Of a stretch of DNA of 64,000 nt, positions 12,753 to 38,578 are shown in pieces (position 1 is the first letter of the stretch; the number at the start of each line of letters is the position of its first letter). The position numbers and the translations under genes were made by a program. This DNA comes from Deltaproteobacteria bacterium. Lineage in GTDB: Bacteria > Myxococcota_A > Polyangia > Polyangiales > JADJMO01. The DNA lies in contig JANYDK010000084.1 of the NCBI GenBank assembly GCA_025363655.1, forward strand, positions 1 to 64,000, given 5' to 3'. Below the pieces are notes generated by a model that was given only the letters and a program-made list of their open reading frames with translations, was not told the origin of the DNA and did no database searches.

Positions 12753-15626
12753 TCACTCGGCAGCGGAGTGAGCTTCGCTCGTGCTGGTCGTGACCGCGAA
12801 GGCGCCGCGGGCTTCACGGAGGCGCTCGACGTCGATGGGATCGATCGAGAGTGCGTGCTTTTGTGACCACATCCCGGCGCGGACGGCGCGCATGGGGACG
12901 TCTTTGCCGAGGAGCGCTTCGATGACCTCGCCGACCTTGACGCCGCCGGAGCTGGCGAGGCGGACGACGATGTCGATGGGGTAGAGATCGCCGACGATGC
13001 CGGCGCGCTCGAGGACGTCGCCGCCGACGCCCGGCACGACGCGTTCGAGGTAACTGCGGACGTCGATGCGTTTGCCGATGCCTTCGATGATGCGCATCAC
13101 CGAGAGCGAGCCGCCTTCGAGCTGGCCCTCGACTTCACGGGCGAGCGCGCGCATGTCGCCGAGGCCGAGGACCTCGAGGGCGGCGCGGGGAATGCCAACT
13201 ACATAATGTGCATATGCACCGTCGCCGAGGATCTTGGCGATGTTGGCGTCGTTGGGGCCGAGGCGGGCGACGGCGTCGAAGCTCATGCCGGACGGGGCTC
13301 GTTCGGTGAGGAGCTCGGGGAGGCGCGTGAGCTTGGCGAGCTCGAGATCGGCGGCGATGCGGACGTCGACGTATTCGTGGAGGGAGGCGACGCCGAGCGA
13401 GAGCGCCGGACCGAAGGTGAGGTCGGGCTTGGGGTGGAAGCCTTGCGAATAGTAGAGCGGCAGATCGAGGCGCCGCACTGCGCGGGGAAGCGCGCGGAGC
13501 AAGTCGAGGTGCGAGAGGAACGCAGCGGGGCCGAGCTTGGTGAAGCGGAGGCGATAGCGGTGGGGCTCGCCCTGAATGAAGCGGACCTTCGGCTTGCGCT
13601 CTTCGGGGCCACGCGGCTTTCGCTTTTCGAGGCGCTCGGTGTCGATGACGACGGGGCCGTCGGCGCCGAGCTTCTTCAGATAGACGAGCCGCTCGTCGCG
13701 CATCGCCGAGAGATCGCAGGCGACGCCGCAGTCGTAGCAGACGAGCTTTCGCTTGTCGGCGACCGTCTGCTCGACGTTGGTGTGGTGGACGAACATGCCG
13801 GCGGCCTTCCCGCACGGGAGCGAGAGCTGGTCTTTCAGCGCCTTGCGGTATTCGCGAGCGAGGAAGCCGTCTTCGAGGCCGACGTCGATGTGCGACCAGG
13901 GCAGGCGCGCGGAGAGCGGGATGGTGCCGGTGTAGCGCGCGAGGGGGATGCCTTCTTCGGCGAAGCAGCGCTGCCAGAGATCGAGATCGAGCTGCTCTTC
14001 CCAGGAGTCGAAGCGGGCGCCGCCGCGATAGGCGCGTTCGATGGCGGCGCCGACGGTGCGATCGCCGCGGGCGAGGACACCTTCGAGGACGGTGCCCGGC
14101 GCGTCGTGCATCTTCAAATCGACGCCGGCGCGACGCGCTTCGCCTTGCACGATCGCTTGTTTGCGCTGGATTTCGGGGAGCGCGTCGAGGGCGCACCACT
14201 GGAAGGGGGTGTGTGGTTTGGGGACGAAGGTGCTGACGCTGACGGTGACCGTGGGGCTGCGGCCCTTCTGTACTTTGCGTCCGACGTCGAGCGCCTTGCG
14301 ACCGGTCTCGACGATGCCGATGACGTCTTCGTCGCGCTCGGTGGGGAGGCCGATCATGAAGTAGAGCTTCATCTTCGACCAACCGCGCGAGAAGACGCGC
14401 TCGGCGGTGGTCATCAGCTGCTCTTCGGTGACGTTCTTGTTCACCACGTCGCGCATGCGCTGCGTGCCCGCCTCTGGGGCGAACGTGAGGCCGGTGGCGC
14501 GCACCTTCTGGATTTCGTCGAGGAGCTCTTCGTCGAGGCCGTAGGCGCGGAGCGAGGAGACCGAGAGAGAAACGCGCTCTTTTTCCAGGCGTTTCATCAC
14601 TTCGCGGACCAGCGGCGAGACGCAGGAGTAGTCGGCGGTCGAGAGGCTGGTGAGCGCGACCTCGTCGAAGCCGGTGCGCTTGAGCGAGGCCATCACCGTG
14701 TCGATGACTGACTCCGGATCGCGCTCGCGGACGGGGCGGTAGATCATCCCTGCTTGGCAGAAGCGACAACCTTCGGTGCAACCGCGGGCGATCTCGACCG
14801 AGATGCGGTCGAAGACCGCTTCGGGATTCGGCACCGGACCGTCGGAGGGGAACGGGTAGCGATTGAGATCGGGGACGAAGGCGCGTTGCACCGGGAATGG
14901 GAGCGCATCATTCGTAGACGCCGTCGATCCCGTCGGCCTCGAGACGACGGTGATGCCGGTGTCGGCGTCGATCTCCGTCGCGTAGAGGCTCGGCACGTAG
15001 ACGCCGGTGATCTTCGCGAGCTCGCGGAGGCGCGCGTTTCGATCGAGGCCGCGTTTTTTGCCGTCGGCCCAAGCGCGAATGAGCGCGGGGAAGGCCTCTT
15101 CGCCGTCACCGACGACGACCGCATCGAGGAAGCGTGCGAGCGGCTCGGGGTGCGTGGCGGTCGGTCCGCCGGCGACGACGCACGGATCGTTTTCCCCGCG
15201 CTCGTCGGCGCGCAGCGGGATGCCGCCGAGATCGAGGAGCTGGAGGCAGTTGGTGTACGTCAGCTCGAACTGCAACGAGAGGCCGACGACGTCGAAGTCG
15301 CGCAAGGGGCGCGCTGTCTCGAGCGAGACGAGGGGGAGCTGACGGGCGCGGAGCTCGCGCTCCATGTCGATCCACGGCGAGAACGCGCGCTCGGCCAACA
15401 GGTCAGGTTGGCTATTGAGGAGAGAGTAGAGAATTTTCAGCCCGAGGTGGCTCATCCCGATGTCGTAGAGATCGGGGAAACCGAGACAGACCTTGGCGAC
15501 GATTGTCGGATCGTCCCACGCTTTCAACACCGCGCCGGCCTCTCCGCCGAGGTAGCGGGCGGGCTTCTGCACGCTGGCGACGAAGTCAGCGTAGGGGTGA
15601 GGGGCCAGTGTCGAAGCGGTCTTCAT
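12753..15626 (-). CDS. radical SAM protein, TIGR03960/TIGR03936 fusion
   Basis: A 957-residue two-module protein. The first 600 residues are a B12-binding-like domain followed by a radical SAM domain with the cluster motif Cys283-x3-Cys287-x2-Cys290 (EIARGCTEGCRFCQAG). A Cys cluster (VCYDCGVACDL) follows the radical SAM part. The C-terminal 200 residues match the TIGR03936/DUF2344 domain (RFTKLGPAAFLSHLDLLRAL, YSQGFHPKPDLTFGPALSLG). In many bacteria the two modules are neighbouring or fused genes and the substrate is unknown, possibly an RNA. The ATG at 15626 fits the start of the homologous region, and a TAGGCT hexamer lies 11 nt upstream. The gene is unlinked to RNase G here. Confidence 0.9.
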   Translation of the reverse strand: MKTASTLAPHPYADFVASVQKPARYLGGEAGAVLKAWDDPTIVAKVCLGFPDLYDIGMSHLGLKILYSLLNSQPDLLAERAFSPWIDMERELRARQLPLVSLETARPLRDFDVVGLSLQFELTYTNCLQLLDLGGIPLRADERGENDPCVVAGGPTATHPEPLARFLDAVVVGDGEEAFPALIRAWADGKKRGLDRNARLRELAKITGVYVPSLYATEIDADTGITVVSRPTGSTASTNDALPFPVQRAFVPDLNRYPFPSDGPVPNPEAVFDRISVEIARGCTEGCRFCQAGMIYRPVRERDPESVIDTVMASLKRTGFDEVALTSLSTADYSCVSPLVREVMKRLEKERVSLSVSSLRAYGLDEELLDEIQKVRATGLTFAPEAGTQRMRDVVNKNVTEEQLMTTAERVFSRGWSKMKLYFMIGLPTERDEDVIGIVETGRKALDVGRKVQKGRSPTVTVSVSTFVPKPHTPFQWCALDALPEIQRKQAIVQGEARRAGVDLKMHDAPGTVLEGVLARGDRTVGAAIERAYRGGARFDSWEEQLDLDLWQRCFAEEGIPLARYTGTIPLSARLPWSHIDVGLEDGFLAREYRKALKDQLSLPCGKAAGMFVHHTNVEQTVADKRKLVCYDCGVACDLSAMRDERLVYLKKLGADGPVVIDTERLEKRKPRGPEERKPKVRFIQGEPHRYRLRFTKLGPAAFLSHLDLLRALPRAVRRLDLPLYYSQGFHPKPDLTFGPALSLGVASLHEYVDVRIAADLELAKLTRLPELLTERAPSGMSFDAVARLGPNDANIAKILGDGAYAHYVVGIPRAALEVLGLGDMRALAREVEGQLEGGSLSVMRIIEGIGKRIDVRSYLERVVPGVGGDVLERAGIVGDLYPIDIVVRLASSGGVKVGEVIEALLGKDVPMRAVRAGMWSQKHALSIDPIDVERLREARGAFAVTTSTSEAHSAAE

Positions 15627-15637
15627 CGAGGGCCGAG

Positions 15638-15643
15638 AGCCTA
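15638..15643 (-). promoter_or_regulatory. TAGGCT, possible -10 element of radical SAM gene
   Basis: On the minus strand TAGGCT is followed by 11 nt and the ATG at 15626, consistent with a leader of about 4 nt. It faces the promoter region of the histidine kinase gene. Confidence 0.4.
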
Positions 15644-15715
15644 GCAGAGCGCAATCGGCGCGCCACGAAGCGCGCAATGACTGCAGGAGTGGAGAGCGCG
15701 AAGGGGGGCGCCTGC

Positions 15716-15721
15716 TAGCAT
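15716..15721 (+). promoter_or_regulatory. TAGCAT, possible -10 element of histidine kinase gene
   Basis: TAGCAT lies 9 nt before the GTG start at 15731; no ribosome-binding sequence fits between them, so the GTG is likely a leaderless start. Confidence 0.42.
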
Positions 15722-15730
15722 GGGCTCTCC

Positions 15731-18058
15731 GTGGTCGACATCGACGAGGCCCTCCGCGAGTCGGAAGAGCGCTATCGCACGCTCTTCGAGCAGGCGCCGG
15801 TGGGGGTGTTCCTCTTCGATCGCTCGATGCGGATCACCGAGTGCAACCTCCGCTTCGTCGACCTCGTGCGCTCGAGCTACGACCGCTTGATCGGGCTGGA
15901 TATCCGGCGCATTCGTGATCAAGGAGTGGTGCCGGTGATCGAGCGCGCGCTCGAGGGCGAGTCGACGATCTTCGAGGGGGCGTACCGTACGCATCACTCG
16001 AACATCGAGCTCCACGTGTCGATGCGCCTCGCGCCCCTGCGCGACGCCGACGGCAACGTGGTCGGCGGGATGGGGCTCGTCGAGGACGTCACCGAGAGAA
16101 TGCGCAAGGCCGCCAAGCTGCGGACGTCGGAGCAGCGGCTCTCGCTTCACGTGCGCGACAGTCCGCTCGGGGTCGTCGTTTACGACCGCAAGGGGCTCGT
16201 CGTCGAGTGGAACGACGCTGCGACGCGCATCTTCGGATGGACCGCCGAGGAGATGCTGGGCAAGCACCCGCTCGACACCTTCGTCCCACCAGCGCAGCGG
16301 GCCGAGATCGAAGCGGTCGCGCGGAAGCTCTTCACCCGCAGCGGCGGTCGACGAAACACCAATCCCAACGTCACCAAGGACGGACGTATCATCCTCTGCG
16401 ATTGGTGGAACACGCCGCTCGTCGACGACGCCGGGGACGTCATCGGGGTCGCCGCGCTCGTCGCCGACGTCACCGAGCGCAAGGAGAGCGAGGCCGCGCT
16501 CCGTCGCTCGGAGGCCCGTTTTCGGCAGGTCATCGAGCAAGTTCCGGAGCTCATCGCGGTGACGCGCGAGCGGCTCGTCGTCTACTCGAATCCGGCGCTG
16601 GTGCGTTTTCTCGGCTATCGCGAGGCGGCCGAGTTGCGAGACCGGCCGCTGGCGTCGATCGCCTTCGTCGACGACGTCGCGCGGCTGCTCCAGTTCGCCG
16701 ACGAGGGGCACGAACATGGTTCTTCATTGCCATCGATCGAGTCGCGTCTCGTGCGTCACGACGGCACGCTCGTCACCTGCGAGGTGAGCGCGGTGCGCGC
16801 CGAGTTCGACGGGCAGCCGTCACTCATCCTCGTCGCCCGCGACGTCACCGAGCGAAAAGAGATGCAGCTGCGGCTCCTCCAGGCCGATCGCATGGCCTCG
16901 GTGGGGACGTTGGCGGCGGGCGTCGCGCACGAGATCAACAACCCGCTCGCCTATCTGATGGCCAACCTCGACGTCGTCACCGTGCGGACGCTCCCCAAGC
17001 TGCTCGAACGTCTTCGCGACAAAGACAGCTCTGCGAGCCCCGAGGAGGTGCTCTCGCAGGCGATCGAGATGCTCGAAATCGCCCGCGAAGGGGCGGCCCG
17101 CGTGCGGGACATCGTCCGCGATTTGCGCACGTTCAGCCGCGCCGACGACGAGCAACGGGGCCCCGTCGACGTGCGGCGCGTGCTCGACGCCTCGGTCAAC
17201 ATGGCGTGGAACGAGATTCGTCACCGCGCGCGGCTGGTCAAAGACTACGACGAGGTGCCGACGGTCTCGGTCAACGAGTCGCGCCTCGCGCAGGTCTTCG
17301 TCAACCTCCTCGTCAACGCGGCGCAGTCCCTCCCCGTCGGGAAGGCGGGCGAGCACGAGATTCGCGTCTTCGTCGGCGTCGATGGGCGAGGTCGGGTGCG
17401 CGTCGAGGTCAGCGACACCGGGCCCGGCATCCCCGAGGACATCGTCGCGCGCATCTTCGATCCCTTCTTCACCACCAAACCGGTCGGCGAGGGCACGGGC
17501 CTCGGCCTTTGGATTTGCCAGGGGATCATCACCAGCTTCGGCGGCGAGATCACCGTCGAGAGCCGGCTCGGGAGCGGCTCGACGTTCAGCGTCGCGTTGC
17601 CTGCCGACGAGTCCCCGCTCACCGAGTACGGCCCATCGTCGTCACCGCCTTCGATGACCGAGGCCAGTCGCGGGCGCGTGTTGGTGGTCGACGACGATCC
17701 GGCGGTGGGACAGGCGCTCTCGCGCGCGCTGGAAAATGAGCATCAAATCGAGCACGTGGTCAGCGCCCGGGACGCGCTCTCACGGTTGCGACGCGGCGAC
17801 GGCTACGACGTCGTGCTCTGTGACCTGATGATGCCCGACGTCACCGGGATGGACCTCTGGGAGACCTTGCGGCGCGAGGCGCATCCCTCGGTCGAACGCT
17901 TCGTCTTCATGACCGGCGGCGCCTTCACCCCGCGCGCCCGCGAGTTCGTCGATGACGTGTCGCGTTCGGGCAAGGTGGTGCTCGACAAGCCCTTCGATTT
18001 GGTCGCCGTCGGCGAGCTCGTGCGGCGGCGCGTCAGAGCGAATCGCCGTGCGTCGTGA
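15731..18058 (+). CDS. hybrid sensor histidine kinase with three PAS domains and receiver
   Basis: A 775-residue cytoplasmic two-component sensor with no membrane segment. Order: PAS1 (about 5-120), PAS2 (125-255), PAS3 (260-375), each ending in the DVTER type PAC motif; HisKA with the phospho-acceptor His400 (LAAGVAHEINNPL); HATPase_c with N box (VFVNLLVNAAQS), G1 (DTGPGIP) and G2 (GEGTGLGLWI); receiver domain at about 645-765 with phospho-acceptor Asp698 (VVLCDLMMPDVTG) and conserved Lys in LDKPFD. The signal is unknown; soluble PAS stacks usually read redox, small ligands or partner proteins. The GTG start is supported by the TAGCAT element just upstream. A lone receiver protein at 36563-36982 shares the FMTGG signature and could be related. 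Confidence 0.93.
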   Translation: MVDIDEALRESEERYRTLFEQAPVGVFLFDRSMRITECNLRFVDLVRSSYDRLIGLDIRRIRDQGVVPVIERALEGESTIFEGAYRTHHSNIELHVSMRLAPLRDADGNVVGGMGLVEDVTERMRKAAKLRTSEQRLSLHVRDSPLGVVVYDRKGLVVEWNDAATRIFGWTAEEMLGKHPLDTFVPPAQRAEIEAVARKLFTRSGGRRNTNPNVTKDGRIILCDWWNTPLVDDAGDVIGVAALVADVTERKESEAALRRSEARFRQVIEQVPELIAVTRERLVVYSNPALVRFLGYREAAELRDRPLASIAFVDDVARLLQFADEGHEHGSSLPSIESRLVRHDGTLVTCEVSAVRAEFDGQPSLILVARDVTERKEMQLRLLQADRMASVGTLAAGVAHEINNPLAYLMANLDVVTVRTLPKLLERLRDKDSSASPEEVLSQAIEMLEIAREGAARVRDIVRDLRTFSRADDEQRGPVDVRRVLDASVNMAWNEIRHRARLVKDYDEVPTVSVNESRLAQVFVNLLVNAAQSLPVGKAGEHEIRVFVGVDGRGRVRVEVSDTGPGIPEDIVARIFDPFFTTKPVGEGTGLGLWICQGIITSFGGEITVESRLGSGSTFSVALPADESPLTEYGPSSSPPSMTEASRGRVLVVDDDPAVGQALSRALENEHQIEHVVSARDALSRLRRGDGYDVVLCDLMMPDVTGMDLWETLRREAHPSVERFVFMTGGAFTPRAREFVDDVSRSGKVVLDKPFDLVAVGELVRRRVRANRRAS

Positions 18059-30878: not shown

Positions 30879-32975
30879 TCAACCCTCGTCGTCGTAGCCG
30901 GAGCGCTGATCGAGGAGCTTGCGGAGAAGATCGCGCACCACCGGCCGCTCTTCACGGGCGAGGGCGCGTCGCATCTCGTAGGTGACCGTCGCGCGGTGAT
31001 CGCGCATCAAATATTTCACCGCCAGCTCGCGCTCGCTGGCCTTGCCCGAAGCGAGCGCGTCGAGGAAGCGGAAGAACGACGACTCGGGATCCCAACGGAG
31101 TCGAACGGCGGCTGCGGCGAGGGCGAGTCCGATGTCGGCGCCCGTCTCGCGCTTCTGCAGCTCGGGGAGAAAACGCGCGCGCACCACCGGCTCTTGGATG
31201 CGACCGAGCAGTCGGACGACGATCGGCAGGCGATCTTCCGGGACGTTGTCGAAGTCCTTGAAGATGACGGCGTCGGCTTCGGTGACGCCTTCGCGGGCGA
31301 GCATGATCGCGGCGTGGAGGCGAAGGCGCGTGCTCTCGGTCGTGAGGAGCGGCTTCGTCACCGCGATGGCGCCCTTCTCGCCGAGATCGCCGGCGAGATC
31401 GATCGACCAACCGGCGCGGTAGAAATCGCCCATCGCCAGTGAGGCGGAGATGTCGCTCACCGAGAGCGGCCCAGCGCCGGCCGGCTTGAGCGCGCCGACG
31501 AGGTCGGTGAGATCGCTCCGACCCTTCACCCACGAGAGGAGCATGCGACCAGGTACCTGCGCGCCCTTCGAGGCGAGCAGGTAGTCGTCGACCTCGGAGA
31601 GCGCGCAGCGACGGGTCTCGACGCAGGAGACGATGTCATCGGTGACCCGCGGATCGTCGATCTTGGCGAGCGCGAGGGCGGCCTTGAGCTTCACGTTCGG
31701 GTTCTTCGACGAGTAGAGCTTGTCGAAGACGAGGTCTTTCTTCGCCCCGTCGGAAAGCGCGAAGAGGCTGTAAATCGCGGTCTCGCGCAGCGTTTCGTTC
31801 TTCTCGATTTTCTCGTCGGTGAAGCGTTCGAGGAGGGGCATCGCCTCGGGTGCGTCGAGCTTGCCGAGCGCGGCGACGGCGGAGACGCGGACGTAGTCGT
31901 TCTTGTCGTCGAGCGCCTTCTTCAACATCGGCAGGCCTTCGGGACGTCGCACGTCACCGAGGACGAAGGCCGCGTTCATGCGAATGGCCGCCTGCTTGTG
32001 CTCGATCAGCGCCTGCGCCGTCGTGTAGAAGGCCTTGGCGTCGAGGCGCTCGAGGGCGAAGGCGATGTTGTTGAGCATGCGCGCCTCGCGGACCTTCGGC
32101 ACCTGCTCGAGGAGCGCGTTGGTCGCCGCCTTGTCGCCGATGCGACCGAGCGCGTAGACGGCGCGGTTGCGCAGGTGCGAGTCGAGGTTCTGCATCAGGG
32201 GGATGAGCGGCGCGACCAGCTCCGGCGCGCGCAGCTCGGCGGCGGCGAAGGTGCCTTGGACGATGAGCCCGGCGTCGTCGCTCTCGAGCGCATATTTCAC
32301 GTCGCCGACCAGCGTCGTGCGCGCCATCAGATGACGGCTCTTCCAGAGCCCGGAGAACGCCGACGAGCGGAAGGTCGGATCTTTCTCGTCGCGCAGACGC
32401 GCGCGAAGCACCTTCACCGCGCGCTGATCGCTGAGGACGCCGAGCGTCTCGAGGACGGCCATGCGGTTGTCGGGGAGCTCGTCTTCGCGTGCGAGGAGCT
32501 TGATCAGCGGCTCGACCGAGCTCACGTCCGGAATGCGACGAAGCGCGTCGACGGCCGCGCGTCGGACGCTCGGATCCCACGCTTCGAGCGCGCCTTGGAG
32601 GGCCGGAAGGGCCGAACGATCGCCGAGCCGACCGAGGATCGACGCGCAGGTGTAGCGCAGGTGATCGTCGACGTTGTCGGCGACGCAGCGCGCGAGGGGC
32701 TTGGTCGCCCGCTTGCCGAGGTTGAGGATGTCGGGGCTCGCCGGCATCTCGCGGGCGGTGACGTTGATGAGCGCCGTCTCGCCCTCGCCGGCGCTCATCG
32801 CGGCCAGCGTCGCCTTCTTCTTCTTCGAGAGCGCCTCGGTCGGCGTCACCTCGGTCGACTCGTCGCCCTCTTCTCCGTCGGGAGAGTCGGCGAGCGCGTT
32901 CTTCATCGAGAGGGCCGCTGGCGCCAGGCCGAGCCCGAGGAGCGCCACCAAAATGAGCTTGGATTTACGGATCAT
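30879..32975 (-). CDS. exported HEAT-repeat protein
   Basis: A 698-residue protein with a signal sequence (KLILVALLGLGLAPAALS) and a nearly continuous solenoid of HEAT/PBS-lyase repeats from about residue 55 to the end, e.g. YTCASILGRLGDRSALPALQ, PSVRRAAVDALRRIPDVSSV, YVRVSAVAALGKLDAPEAMP. It is most likely periplasmic and serves as a protein-binding scaffold. The ATG at 32975 overlaps the stop of the upstream small lipoprotein gene by 4 nt (ATGA) and the ligase-like gene follows after 19 nt, making a three-gene operon. A role in glycan export or surface assembly is suggested only by that context. Confidence 0.82.
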   Translation of the reverse strand: MIRKSKLILVALLGLGLAPAALSMKNALADSPDGEEGDESTEVTPTEALSKKKKATLAAMSAGEGETALINVTAREMPASPDILNLGKRATKPLARCVADNVDDHLRYTCASILGRLGDRSALPALQGALEAWDPSVRRAAVDALRRIPDVSSVEPLIKLLAREDELPDNRMAVLETLGVLSDQRAVKVLRARLRDEKDPTFRSSAFSGLWKSRHLMARTTLVGDVKYALESDDAGLIVQGTFAAAELRAPELVAPLIPLMQNLDSHLRNRAVYALGRIGDKAATNALLEQVPKVREARMLNNIAFALERLDAKAFYTTAQALIEHKQAAIRMNAAFVLGDVRRPEGLPMLKKALDDKNDYVRVSAVAALGKLDAPEAMPLLERFTDEKIEKNETLRETAIYSLFALSDGAKKDLVFDKLYSSKNPNVKLKAALALAKIDDPRVTDDIVSCVETRRCALSEVDDYLLASKGAQVPGRMLLSWVKGRSDLTDLVGALKPAGAGPLSVSDISASLAMGDFYRAGWSIDLAGDLGEKGAIAVTKPLLTTESTRLRLHAAIMLAREGVTEADAVIFKDFDNVPEDRLPIVVRLLGRIQEPVVRARFLPELQKRETGADIGLALAAAAVRLRWDPESSFFRFLDALASGKASERELAVKYLMRDHRATVTYEMRRALAREERPVVRDLLRKLLDQRSGYDDEG

Positions 32976-33316
32976 TGGGTGACGACCTCGACCTTGGTGG
33001 CGAGCTTCTTCAGCTGCTCCATGAGCGCCTCGCGCGTGATGCGTTTGCTGAGGTAGCGAATCTTCGCTTTGCGCCCCGCGCACTTCGTCGTCGTGCCCTC
33101 CCAGCTCACCAGGTCGACGGCGCGCGAGCCGTAGAGGGCGAGATCGAAGGTCTCTTCGCAGCTGGCCGTCTTCGGGAGGTCGAGCTGGACGATGAGCGTC
33201 TCACGAGGCTCGCTCGCGGCGACCGGTTCGTCGTGACGAGGTGCGGCCATCGCGACGGGGCCGGCGCAGGCTTGGGCGAGGACGAAGAGAAACAGGAGCG
33301 ACGGGCGAGTTCGCAT
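32972..33316 (-). CDS. small lipoprotein, first gene of HEAT/ligase operon
   Basis: A 114-residue predicted lipoprotein: MRTRPSLLFLFVLAQAC is a signal with lipobox LAQAC. The mature protein has a compact alpha/beta pattern with two further Cys (TASCEETFD, TTKCAGRKAK) that could pair. The ATG at 33316 is chosen because signal character begins there. Its stop overlaps the HEAT gene start (ATGA), so the two are translationally coupled. Family not recognised. Confidence 0.72.
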   Translation of the reverse strand: MRTRPSLLFLFVLAQACAGPVAMAAPRHDEPVAASEPRETLIVQLDLPKTASCEETFDLALYGSRAVDLVSWEGTTTKCAGRKAKIRYLSKRITREALMEQLKKLATKVEVVTQ

Positions 33317-33484: not shown

Positions 33485-34342
33485 TCAGACGCCGGGGAAC
33501 TTCGCGATCGCGTCCCAGTTGTCTTTGATCTCCTGGGCCGTCCAGACGCCGTCGTTCTCGTCTTTGAACTTCCCCGGCGACTCCATCATTTTGTACGCAT
33601 ACATGCGACCGCCCGCGACCGCGAGGACTTGGCCGCTGAGGTCGCCGCAGAGGTCGCTGGCGAGGAAGATCGCTGCCGGCGCGATGTGATCGGGCGTCAT
33701 GTTGTCGACGCCGGCCATCATCGGGAGGTCTTCGGTCATGCGCGTCTTGGCGATCGGCGCGATGGCGTTGACGGTGATGCGGTGCTTCTGCAGCTCGATC
33801 GCGGTGGTGCGCGTGAGCCCGTAAATTCCAGCCTTTGCTGCGCTGTAGTTGGTTTGACCGAAGTTGCCGAGGAGGCCGGAGACGCTCGTCGTGTTGACGA
33901 TGCGCCCGCCGCCGCCTTGCGAGACGACCTGCTTGGCGAAGGCCTGCGAGCAGAGGTAGCTGCCCTTGAGGTGGACGGCGACGACGAGGTCGAACATCGC
34001 CTCTTCCATCTTGAGGAAGCTCTTGTCGCGGAGGATGCCGGCGTTGTTGATGAGGACGTCGACGCGACCGAACGCGGCCACCGCGGTCTTGATCAAGGTG
34101 TCGGCGCCGACGACGGTGGCGATCGACTCGTGATGGGCGACGGCTTGTCCGCCGGCCTTCTTCACCTCGGCGACGACGTCGTCGGCCATCGAGGTCGACT
34201 GACCATCGCCGCTGCGGTTGCCGCCGACGTCGTTGACGACGACCTTGGCGCCTTCGCGCGCAGAGAGCAGGGCCTCGGCGCGCCCGATGCCGCCGCCCGC
34301 GCCCGTGATGATGACGACCTTGTTCTCGAGGAGACCAGCCAT
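33485..34342 (-). CDS. SDR-family (3R)-hydroxyacyl-CoA / 3-oxoacyl reductase-like enzyme
   Basis: A 285-residue NAD(P)-dependent short-chain dehydrogenase. The cofactor motif is TGAGGGIG (about residues 14-21), followed by NNAG, the catalytic Ser in VNTTSVSGLLG and Tyr-x3-Lys in NYSAAKAGIYGL. The insert VVNDVGGNRSGDGQSTSMAD and the tail KFKDENDGVWTAQEIKDNWD are typical of the group related to the dehydrogenase half of peroxisomal multifunctional enzyme 2, acting on hydroxyacyl-CoA in fatty acid oxidation. It is monocistronic, followed by a family A hairpin. Exact substrate is unproven. Confidence 0.87.
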   Translation of the reverse strand: MAGLLENKVVIITGAGGGIGRAEALLSAREGAKVVVNDVGGNRSGDGQSTSMADDVVAEVKKAGGQAVAHHESIATVVGADTLIKTAVAAFGRVDVLINNAGILRDKSFLKMEEAMFDLVVAVHLKGSYLCSQAFAKQVVSQGGGGRIVNTTSVSGLLGNFGQTNYSAAKAGIYGLTRTTAIELQKHRITVNAIAPIAKTRMTEDLPMMAGVDNMTPDHIAPAAIFLASDLCGDLSGQVLAVAGGRMYAYKMMESPGKFKDENDGVWTAQEIKDNWDAIAKFPGV

Positions 34343-35243: not shown

Positions 35244-36413
35244 ATGGACACGCAGACCGCCCCGACGAGCCGCCGGCAAGAGCACCACATCGAAATCGTC
35301 GAGCGCCCGTTCGGTGTCGAGACCCAGCGCTTCGCCGATCTCGCGCGTCGCATCTATCGCGACGATCCGAACTTCGTTGCGCCGCTGGACATGGATTTCA
35401 AAGACCGGTTCAACCCGAAGAAGAACCCGTTCTTCGAGCACGCCGAGGGCACCACGTTCATCGCCGTCAAGGACGGCGTCGACGTCGGCCGCATCACCGC
35501 GCAGATCGATCACGGGCACCAAGATCGTTACAAGGACGACGTCGGCTTCTTCGGCTACCTCGACACCTTCGACGATCCCGCCGTCGCGAAGAAGCTGCTC
35601 GAGGCCGCCGCTGCCTGGCTCAAGGGCAAGGGCATGAAGAAGATGCGTGGGCCGATGTCGCTCAACATCAACGAAGAGCTCGGGTGTCTCGTCGAGGGCT
35701 TCGACACGCCGCCGATGGTGATGATGCCGCACCACCGCGCCTACCAAGGCGCGCTCATCGAGGCCGCCGGGCTCGTCAAAGAGAAGGACGTTTTCGCCTG
35801 GAAATATCAGGTCGGCGAGGTCCCGGTGCGCGCGCGCAAGGCGCACGACGACGTCATGAAGATCCCCGGCGTGACCATCCGCACCGTCGACCCGCGGGTG
35901 ATGGAGCGCGACGTCCGCATCGTCATGGACATCTTCAACGACGCTTGGCAGGACAACTGGGGCTTCGTCGCCCTCACCGAGTCCGAGCTGAAGAAGATGG
36001 CTGCGGACATGAAGATGATCCTCGTCCCCGATCTCGGCCTCATCGCCGAGGTCGACGGTGAGCCAGCCGCGGTCAGCCTCGCGCTCCCCAACCTCAACGA
36101 GCTCATCCGTGATCTCGACGGCAAGCTCTTTCCCTTTGGCCTCCCCAAGCTCCTCTGGCGCCTCAAGGTGAAGGGCCCGGAGACGGCGCGCCTCATCATC
36201 CTCGGCATCAAGAAGAAGTTCCGCACGCAGAAGCGCTTCGGCGGTCTCTCGGCGGCGCTCTACGTGGAGATGAACGACCGCGGAAAGAAGCTCGGCATCA
36301 AGAGCGGCGAGCTCAGCTGGACGCTCGAGGACAACGCGCCGGTGAACCTCGGGATCAAGATGATGGGTGGCAAAGTCTACAAGCGCTATCGGGTGTATTG
36401 CCGCGATTTGTAG
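35244..36413 (+). CDS. GNAT-fold acyltransferase-like protein
   Basis: A 389-residue soluble protein with two halves that look like N-acyltransferase folds. It opens with HHIEIVERPFGVETQRFADL; EGTTFIAVKDGVDVGRITAQ matches the central beta strands of GNAT enzymes, and DVGFFGYLDTFDDPAVAKKL and AAAWLKGKGMKKMRGPMSLN match the acetyl-CoA pyrophosphate-binding helix region. The second half (RIVMDIFNDAWQDNWGFVAL, GLIAEVDGEPAAVSLALPNL) repeats the pattern. The family is widespread in bacteria and usually annotated only as hypothetical or N-acetyltransferase; substrate unknown. A family A hairpin follows 11 nt after the stop. Confidence 0.78.
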   Translation: MDTQTAPTSRRQEHHIEIVERPFGVETQRFADLARRIYRDDPNFVAPLDMDFKDRFNPKKNPFFEHAEGTTFIAVKDGVDVGRITAQIDHGHQDRYKDDVGFFGYLDTFDDPAVAKKLLEAAAAWLKGKGMKKMRGPMSLNINEELGCLVEGFDTPPMVMMPHHRAYQGALIEAAGLVKEKDVFAWKYQVGEVPVRARKAHDDVMKIPGVTIRTVDPRVMERDVRIVMDIFNDAWQDNWGFVALTESELKKMAADMKMILVPDLGLIAEVDGEPAAVSLALPNLNELIRDLDGKLFPFGLPKLLWRLKVKGPETARLIILGIKKKFRTQKRFGGLSAALYVEMNDRGKKLGIKSGELSWTLEDNAPVNLGIKMMGGKVYKRYRVYCRDL

Positions 36414-36450: not shown

Positions 36451-36562
36451 CGCTTCGGTCAATCTCGCTCCGCTCGGTTGCCGAAGCTCGGTGAAGGGTT
36501 GACCGAGCGCAAAAGTGACTCTTATCGGCAGAGTCGAGCTGGCCGTACTCCCGTCAACCCCT

Positions 36563-36982
36563 GTGCGCGTGCTCCTCATCGACGACGAAGTTGGCAATTT
36601 GCACGGTATTCGCCGGGTTTTGGAGAGCGATCACCACGTCGTCGAGATCGCCGATCGAGGCGAGGCGGGGCTCGAGCAATGTCTGGGTGACTTCGGGCCC
36701 GACGTGGTCTTGTGCGACCTGATGCTGCCCGATCTCCTCGGCCCCGAGGTCTATGCGCAGGCCATCGCCAAGCGACCCGAGCTCGAACCGCGCTTCCTAT
36801 TCATGACTGGCGGGGTGCTCGACGCCAGCTCGGCGCGCTTCCTCGAGACGTTTCGTGAGCGGATCCTCTGGAAGCCGTTCTCCGTACGCGCGATGAACGA
36901 GCGGTTGCGCCGGATGGGTCCGCGGCCGTATCGCGCCTCTTCGGGGAGGCTCCTCGTGGCACGTCGGACGCCCTCTCGCTGA
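36563..36982 (+). CDS. stand-alone response-regulator receiver protein
   Basis: A 139-residue single receiver domain without output domain. It begins MRVLLIDDEVGNLHGIRRVL from a GTG at 36563; an ATG at 36515 would add sixteen residues unlike the family. Phospho-acceptor Asp is in DVVLCDLMLPDLLG, the Thr switch in FLFMTGGVL and the Lys in WKPFSV. The FMTGG segment and the surrounding helices resemble the receiver at the end of the hybrid kinase at 15731-18058, so this may be a shuttle or sink in the same kind of pathway. No kinase gene adjoins. Confidence 0.85.
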   Translation: MRVLLIDDEVGNLHGIRRVLESDHHVVEIADRGEAGLEQCLGDFGPDVVLCDLMLPDLLGPEVYAQAIAKRPELEPRFLFMTGGVLDASSARFLETFRERILWKPFSVRAMNERLRRMGPRPYRASSGRLLVARRTPSR

Positions 36983-37097
36983 GCATCCCGCTGAGCTACT
37001 GCCTTCTTCCCCGCTACGTGCTAATCCGCCCGCATCCACGCAATGCGTCGACCCGATCTTGGGCGGCGACGAAGAGGCGCGGCGAAGGGAACTCCGG

Positions 37098-37472
37098 ATG
37101 TACGAGATCAGCCAAGAGACCGTGATCGCCGCTGCCCACCAGCTCCGCCTCTCGCCTGGCGAAGGTGAGCGGCTCCATGGACACAACTGGCGCATCAAGG
37201 CCGTCATCCGCTGTGACCAGCTCGATTCGCGCGGAATGGTGCTCGACTTCAACGATCTCGGCCGCGAGCTCCGCGCCTTCGTCGAGCCTTGGGAGCACGT
37301 CTTCCTCAACGAGCTGCCGCCCTGGAACGACATCAATCCGACGGCCGAGAACATCGCGCGCGTCGTGCTCGAGGGCCTCGCGCCCAAGGTCGACGACGGG
37401 CGCGCCCGCATCGTCCGCGTCGAGGTGTGGGAGAACGACACGTGTTGCGCGACCTTCTACCGCGAGCGCTGA
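37098..37472 (+). CDS. 6-pyruvoyltetrahydropterin synthase/QueD family, PTPS-III type motif
   Basis: A 124-residue T-fold enzyme. The zinc His ligands are in VIAAAHQL and RLHGHNW. In QueD and PTPS the nucleophile lies in a Cys-x3-HGH motif; here the segment reads GERLHGH, so the Cys is absent and Glu-x2-HGH is present. This is the signature described for the PTPS-III branch, members of which can replace dihydroneopterin aldolase (FolB) in folate synthesis. The His of the catalytic pair is kept in EHVFLNE and the substrate-binding Glu in VEVWENDTCC. AAGGGA lies 9 nt before the ATG at 37098. The end overlaps the following lipoprotein gene. No queC, queE or folate genes adjoin. Confidence 0.85.
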   Translation: MYEISQETVIAAAHQLRLSPGEGERLHGHNWRIKAVIRCDQLDSRGMVLDFNDLGRELRAFVEPWEHVFLNELPPWNDINPTAENIARVVLEGLAPKVDDGRARIVRVEVWENDTCCATFYRER

Positions 37473-38578
37473 GCGTCACCGTCGTCACCGTCGTCACCGC
37501 GATCGCTTGCAAGAAGAGCGACTCGACGAACCCGCCCTCGGGCAGTGCATCGTCGACCTCCGCGACCTCTGCGACCTCTGTGACCTCTGCGAGCTCTGTG
37601 ACCGCGAAGTCGTCGGCCGCCGTCAGCGCCAACTCGATCGCCAGCGCGGCGCCTTCGACGAGCGCGTCGGCCTTGGCTGCCGCGCCGGTGCCGGAAACAC
37701 CGTTCGGAATTGCATGTAATGATTATGCATCGTCGCGCTGTGCAGCGCTCGACAAGTGCTCGCATCACTTGCTGTCGGTGAGCGACGGTGACGTCGCGGC
37801 CTGCGAAGCAAATGCGGTCGCGGTTTGCCTGTCGTCGATGGGGCTCCCCGAGAGCGGGTGGACTCCCGCGACGATCACCGCTTGTGCGACCGCGTCGCGC
37901 GAGGCTTCGTGCGACGTCTTCTTCCACGCGCCCGCGCTCGGTTCCTGTGCGCCGCCGAAGGGCAAGCTCGCCGCCGCCGCGAGCTGCATCTCGGACGAGC
38001 AGTGCGCCGATCGGTTCTGCGTTCGTGCTTCGATTCGTGATGTTTGCGGCAAGTGTGCGACTCCGCCCGGCAACGGCATGCCGTGCGACAAGCAGCGTTG
38101 CGCCGAGGGCCTGGCCTGCGTCTCCGGCAAGTGCGCCGTGCGTGGCGAGCTCGGTGGAGCGTGCGCCGGCACCGGGACGTCGGGCAGCTGTCAGCCGTGG
38201 CTCTCGTGCGTCTCCGGCAAGTGCGCCGCTCCGATCACGACGACGAGCGAGGACGCGAGCAAGAAGTGCAGCATCCTCGGCGATGCACCCGACTGTGATG
38301 GGCGACTCGGCCTCTTCTGCGACATCGCCGCGTCGCAGTGCAAGGCGATGAACGTCGCCAAAAAGGGCGAGTCTTGCACCAGCGAGAAAGGCGAGCTCCG
38401 TATCTGCGCCGGGGGTCTCCTCTGTCGCCGTGCCGACGGAGCCTCGGCGTCGACGTGCGTTCCCCAGCCGCACCTCGGCGACGCGTGCGACATCACGATG
38501 GGCCTTCGTTGCGCGGCCCCGTCGCGGTGTCTCGACGGCAAGTGCGTGGTGCCGTCGATGTCGGCCTGCGCGAAGTGA
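37442..38578 (+). CDS. Cys-rich lipoprotein with Dickkopf-like repeats
   Basis: A 378-residue lipoprotein. The GTG at 37442, inside the end of the preceding gene, gives MLRDLLPRALSVTVVTVVTA, a good signal with lipobox AIAC. A Ser/Thr/Ala linker of 9-bp repeats follows (SATSATSVTSASSVT). The mature protein has more than 25 Cys; after an N-terminal helical Cys pair region, units such as DEQCADRFCV, CAEGLACVSGKC and SCQPWLSCVSGKC resemble the Cys-rich knots common in myxobacterial surface lipoproteins. The 31-nt overlap with the PTPS-like gene suggests cotranscription but no functional link is evident. Confidence 0.75.
   Translation: MLRDLLPRALSVTVVTVVTAIACKKSDSTNPPSGSASSTSATSATSVTSASSVTAKSSAAVSANSIASAAPSTSASALAAAPVPETPFGIACNDYASSRCAALDKCSHHLLSVSDGDVAACEANAVAVCLSSMGLPESGWTPATITACATASREASCDVFFHAPALGSCAPPKGKLAAAASCISDEQCADRFCVRASIRDVCGKCATPPGNGMPCDKQRCAEGLACVSGKCAVRGELGGACAGTGTSGSCQPWLSCVSGKCAAPITTTSEDASKKCSILGDAPDCDGRLGLFCDIAASQCKAMNVAKKGESCTSEKGELRICAGGLLCRRADGASASTCVPQPHLGDACDITMGLRCAAPSRCLDGKCVVPSMSACAK

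Follow-up and report, generated by a model that had tools for sequence, protein, structure and literature searches.

A Cys-less PTPS-III-type enzyme that probably takes the place of FolB in folate synthesis in a genome of the Polyangia

Results and Discussion

A PTPS-family gene lacking the catalytic cysteine

What does a PTPS-family protein do when the catalytic Cys of its motif is missing? The window, by which we mean the whole stretch of 64,000 nucleotides analysed here, raises this question with a gene at 37098..37472 on the plus strand that encodes a protein of 124 amino acids (P0001). We conclude that the product of this gene is most probably, with a probability of roughly 0.86, an enzyme of the PTPS-III type that acts in folate synthesis in place of FolB; we base this on motif, clade and distribution because gene clusters gave no support. 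A domain match alone would label the protein 6-pyruvoyltetrahydropterin synthase or QueD-like. Annotation as PTPS-III would close the gap that FolB leaves in this lineage's folate pathway.

The gene is identified by the translation of its open reading frame, a PTPS profile match (Pfam PF01242, 117 bits against a cut-off of 22.4) and a conserved start. The Met at 37098 is kept as the start in 15/15 aligned orthologues, and an in-frame TTG upstream at 37059 is a less likely start. By profile match and predicted fold the protein belongs to the PTPS superfamily; with the NCBIfam QueD equivalog model TIGR03367 it scores 76.9 bits, below the cut-off of 89.25. The initial annotation had read the Cys-x3-HGH motif of QueD and PTPS as replaced by GERLHGH, and we find this replacement to be real in the translation, in the Pfam match and in 15/15 orthologues. 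The motif Gly23-Glu24-Arg-Leu-His27-Gly-His29 (37164..37184, plus strand) occupies residues 23-29, at the site of the QueD C-x3-HGH, with Gly at the position of the catalytic Cys and Glu24 as the Glu of ExxHGH. It is not a sequencing error or a product of chance, since all 15 close orthologues (60-100% identity, counting the window protein itself) have it. The protein hence carries the ExxHGH motif of PTPS-III. It has neither the CxxxHGH catalytic Cys of QueD/PTPS-I, where Gly is found, nor the CxxxxxHGH of PTPS-II (biopterin), residue 21 being Gly as well. Cysteines are present elsewhere, at positions 39, 116 and 117.

Active-site residues and predicted structure

His14 (37137..37139, plus strand), which we take to be the first of the three zinc-binding His of the PTPS family, is invariant in a 31-row alignment (A2). 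Glu66-His67 (37293..37298, plus strand) stands at the position of the Asp-His of QueD and PTPS, which we assume to be the catalytic pair, and reads EH in 15/15 orthologues. Glu112 (37431..37433, plus strand), presumably the C-terminal Glu that anchors the pterin, is invariant in the alignments, and Cys116 (37443..37445, plus strand) is invariant in the 15 orthologues and mostly Ser in the aligned CExxHGH relatives. Relative to QueD-type rows and most rows of the PTPS-I/III hybrids, which read CExxHGH, three differences are fixed in the clade of the window protein: Cys is replaced by Gly23, Asp is replaced by Glu66, and Cys116 is present. Outside the 15 orthologues, Glu-His occurs in only three of the PTPS proteins read in the class (L057, L092 and L095); L105, from a wider search, has it too. 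We conjecture that the Asp-to-Glu swap in the catalytic pair may re-set its geometry.

The predicted model (pLDDT 96.1) has the PTPS fold. Cys116 lies four residues past Glu112, outside the CxxxHGH position, in a predicted loop between strands 103-111 and 117-121. In structural alignments of the model the highest score went to E. coli QueD (Z 18.2), in a tie that extends down to Z 17.2 and includes P. aeruginosa 2oba and Streptomyces SCO6650, each at Z 17.5; dihydroneopterin aldolases (the FolB family), which share the T-fold, scored about Z 9. Comparison with the E. coli QueD entry 4NTK gave Z 18.1. Like the QueD-type rows of A2, the window protein has the three His of the zinc site and the C-terminal Glu, but it differs from QueD in having neither the catalytic Cys nor the Asp of Asp-His, in scoring below the NCBIfam cut-off and in belonging to a separate clade.

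A Cys-less PTPS protein could also be a decaying, catalytically dead paralogue. Such decay would resemble what is seen in three Cys-less sister proteins, L216 (G272), L221 (G373) and L225 (G358), all of which lack the C-terminal Glu and two of which lack the motif Glu. In the window clade, however, 15/15 proteins, at 60-88% identity to the window protein, keep the motif Glu, all three His, His67 and Glu112 unchanged, and we find this explanation hardly credible.

Folate and queuosine genes in the source genome

The initial annotation had proposed a possible role in folate synthesis rather than queuosine, with a bypass of FolB, in a genome expected to lack folB and to hold folE and folK. We searched the source genome, a 9.0-Mb draft in 150 contigs that is 96% complete, and the outcome for all three genes agrees with this. 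The FolB search (PF02152) came back empty for this genome and positive for 10/14 control genomes. FolK is encoded on contig C30, confirmed by the NCBIfam folK model, and FolE on contig C111, where the NCBIfam folE models matched below cut-off. QueC (PF06508), which the search detects in 12/14 controls, likewise gave no match here, which argues against a queuosine role. Together with the separate clade of the protein, these results support the proposed folate role and FolB bypass.

One further PTPS match is present in the genome, on C111. It reads CQRLHGH and passes the QueD equivalog cut-off (107.1 bits), and this canonical CxxxHGH QueD near folE is a separate enzyme. It may serve another tetrahydropterin rather than queuosine, because the genome has no QueC match. 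On C111 we observe a cluster queD (CxxxHGH)-DUF2203-folE-SDR reductase at 15447-17570 (G000; L188 7448-9571), and queD, folE and SDR are also together in the relative G170 (L204), which has FolB.

The window protein could alternatively be a second QueD for queuosine, its catalytic Cys functionally replaced by Cys116 or Glu24. This reading draws on the shared fold with E. coli QueD as the top structural match (Z 18.2), on an invariant Cys just after Glu112 and on the two TGT genes of the genome; against it, a canonical CxxxHGH QueD is already present in 13/13 genomes carrying the window gene whose second copy was read (13 of 15 carriers), QueC has no match in the genome, although a divergent QueC is possible, and the tree sets the window protein apart from QueD. 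It would also leave unexplained why 15/15 carriers have no FolB match, and we regard it as very improbable.

QueD is widespread. For QueC, 71/124 genomes of the order have a match at E 0.001, and in 55 the match exceeds the cut-off. By their coordinates, the majority look short and partial, and strong matches are seen in three genomes only (G214, G253 and G220). In several genomes of family f3, a 245-aa ORF just after queD (G202 C140:10073-10393, G153 C249:992-1312, G235 C1:1603128-1603445) matches QueC over about positions 84-201 only. This ORF is possibly a divergent QueC, and divergent QueC genes may exist.

Gene neighbourhood

The gene is preceded by a response regulator (36515-36982) and followed by an ORF that has no Pfam match; the window also holds genes for an SDR dehydrogenase, the alpha subunit of D-lysine 5,6-aminomutase and an MFS transporter. 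No folate gene was found among the nine scanned window neighbours. Around 15 other orthologue loci, 54 scanned neighbours gave 50 Pfam families, the 25 most frequent of which include no folate enzyme; 11 of these neighbours carry FHA, 4 DciA, 4 GATase1-like and 3 HEAT domains. Neither FolE nor FolK of the source genome finds a match in the orthologue loci. Comparing 14 window proteins with these loci, we found that those at 33485-34342 and 35265-36413 recur, at 72-80% identity, only in the family-mate G239, and that weak matches (27-28%) to the HEAT-repeat protein at 30879-33083 lie close to the orthologues in three other genomes (L191, L194 and L195). Gene context was tried as support for the folate role and none was found at the window gene or at the orthologue loci. 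A promoter and terminator scan found nothing. We also observe an ORF at 37289-38578 that overlaps the gene end in another frame and from about 37442 would, by eye, give a lipoprotein rich in Cys that includes a lipobox-like stretch.

This lack of folate gene context would suit a pterin enzyme that makes another product, for example a biopterin-like tetrahydropterin, with an unrelated or unrecognised aldolase covering the FolB step; the queD-DUF2203-folE-SDR cluster elsewhere in the genome likewise suggests other pterin chemistry. That cluster, however, has a Cys-type PTPS of its own, and its queD, folE and SDR are also together in the FolB-holding G170, so that the window gene is not needed for it, and the reciprocal pattern with FolB would have to be a coincidence. 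We therefore consider another product highly unlikely and retain the PTPS-III-type reading.

Distribution of the enzyme and of FolB

PF01242 is found in 230/240 genomes of the class and FolB in 200/240. BLAST with the window protein gave matches at 60-100% identity in 15/240 class genomes, its own included, and the identities show a gap from 60% for the orthologues to 49% for the next match. All 15 orthologue matches read G[ED]GERLHGHNW and EH[VA]FLN. At least 90% completeness and at most 5% contamination (rounded values) apply to 12 of the 15 carriers. All 15 carrier genomes are among the 40 class genomes with no FolB match, and among the 106 surveyed genomes of the order a FolB match is missing in 15/15 carriers versus 3/91 others (Fisher p 1.3e-15, with kinship ignored). 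The two states are found in close relatives: families f1, f2 and f5 and genus g9 each hold both carriers and FolB holders, and FolB is present and a close orthologue absent in the family-mate G170 and in G061, G111, G190, G229 and G237, genus-mates of G219.

We attempted a test that allows for kinship using a tree of 62 QueD proteins, which represents 62/106 order genomes (those with listed places) and includes 13/15 carriers (G191 and G227 are out). On this weakly resolved tree the carrier state requires 8 changes. Just three independent contrasts lie on well-supported branches, and FolB behaved as expected in 2.9/3 of them on average and never in the opposite way; with a median p of 0.25 the test was not significant. 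By count, then, the association with FolB is complete; allowing for kinship leaves it formally weak.

The FolB search also gave no match in 25 of the remaining 225 class genomes, which lack the window gene. CExxHGH copies without the QueD-type HK prefix were read in 26 genomes, a set made up of the better matches to the window protein rather than a full census, and 13 of these 26 genomes have no FolB match. This half with no FolB match suits an enzyme doing both jobs, as PTPS-I/III hybrids are described to do in the consulted part of PMC5041015. Beyond the 15 carriers and these 13, 12 of the 40 genomes with no FolB match are left, several of them <80% complete. In both G214 and G237 the QueD-type protein has CERLHGH and the genome holds FolB, so ExxHGH alone is not diagnostic.

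Position in the PTPS tree and nearest relatives

The PTPS tree contains 88 proteins over just 125 columns, is midpoint-rooted and has no PTPS-III of proven activity among its rows. GERLHGH proteins form one clade of 16 rows (98/97), including one from a named Myxococcales MAG, and QueD forms a separate clade (100/100). The initial annotation had named grouping with QueD together with a standard folB as evidence against its reading; the window protein falls outside the QueD clade, and no FolB match was seen in its genome. Closest to the GERLHGH clade stand three proteins, likewise Cys-less, that come from other classes in the phylum (joint group 99/87). Next outward on the midpoint-rooted tree are the CExxHGH PTPS-I/III hybrids of class-mates, such as those of family f18, at 38-49% identity to the window protein; they form one group with the window clade and its Cys-less sister (99/87) and, unlike the window clade, keep the Cys and mostly Asp-His.

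The Cys-less sister proteins of other classes may, by their residues, do something else. The G272 protein keeps the motif Glu and its genome has no FolB match, whereas the G358 and G373 proteins have lost this Glu and their genomes have FolB. We give this split little weight, because the expectation was not set beforehand, the C-terminal Glu is missing from all three proteins, and three of the other seven genomes in the same FolB search (G352, G408 and G293) likewise have neither a FolB match nor the window gene; a QueD-type copy was read in G352 and G408, and none was read for G293. A wider search for Cys-less relatives covered the best 80 of 533 confirmed loci, of which 79 were readable (L174 was not). 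Because it was limited to these 80 and used motif patterns taken from the window clade, it may have passed over PTPS-III forms that lack the Cys in another way. Among the 79 readable loci of these best 80, L105, which comes from a MAG of the Myxococcales, was alone of the same type, the other 78 having Cys and Asp-His.

Comparison with known enzymes and proposed reaction

ExxHGH is given as the motif of PTPS-III in PMC5041015, which in the part consulted also names PTPS-VI as another folate-linked subfamily. For replacement of FolB by the PTPS family, PMC3223725, as far as its consulted text goes, lists 8 prokaryotes and 1 eukaryote in which it has been validated. None of the papers listed in our literature searches concerned this enzyme in myxobacteria. 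With PTPS-III (COG0720) the window protein has in common ExxHGH, the PTPS family, and a genome with folE and folK and without a FolB match; this comparison is one of motif and published descriptions. Plasmodium PTPS (1Y13, 2A0S) likewise has a Cys-less site with Glu in place (PMC2229834) and the same fold (Z 14.2 and 14.0), with 21-25% identity in the structural alignments, a longer chain and two products. According to the consulted part of that report, P. falciparum PTPS releases 6-hydroxymethyldihydropterin beside its usual product, and this product is lost in the E38C and E38Q variants (PMC2229834).

By analogy with Plasmodium PTPS and PTPS-III, Glu24 would act as the base in place of Cys, and the enzyme would cleave the side chain of its probable substrate, dihydroneopterin triphosphate, to leave 6-hydroxymethyldihydropterin as the probable product. 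Loss of the Cys should, by the same analogy, weaken or remove the QueD/PTPS reaction. We tentatively extend the PTPS-III-type reading to a further possibility that we hold to be rather doubtful, namely that the protein is a dedicated synthase with 6-hydroxymethyldihydropterin as its single product, that its active site has been rebuilt (Gly, Glu-His and the new Cys116), and that it was swapped with FolB, in either direction, repeatedly within one order. If true, this would be a natural series of swaps of two enzyme families, both T-folds, at an essential step of folate synthesis. The order contains close relatives with either FolB or the window enzyme, which makes the exchange, the Glu-His pair and Cys116 directly testable.

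A phage origin was considered and found no support, all 40 phage records found being <60% identical to the window protein and 30-40% identical among the ten matches listed. PTPS/QueD-like proteins are encoded in these 40 phage records, for example in MT839495.1 and MT837176.1.
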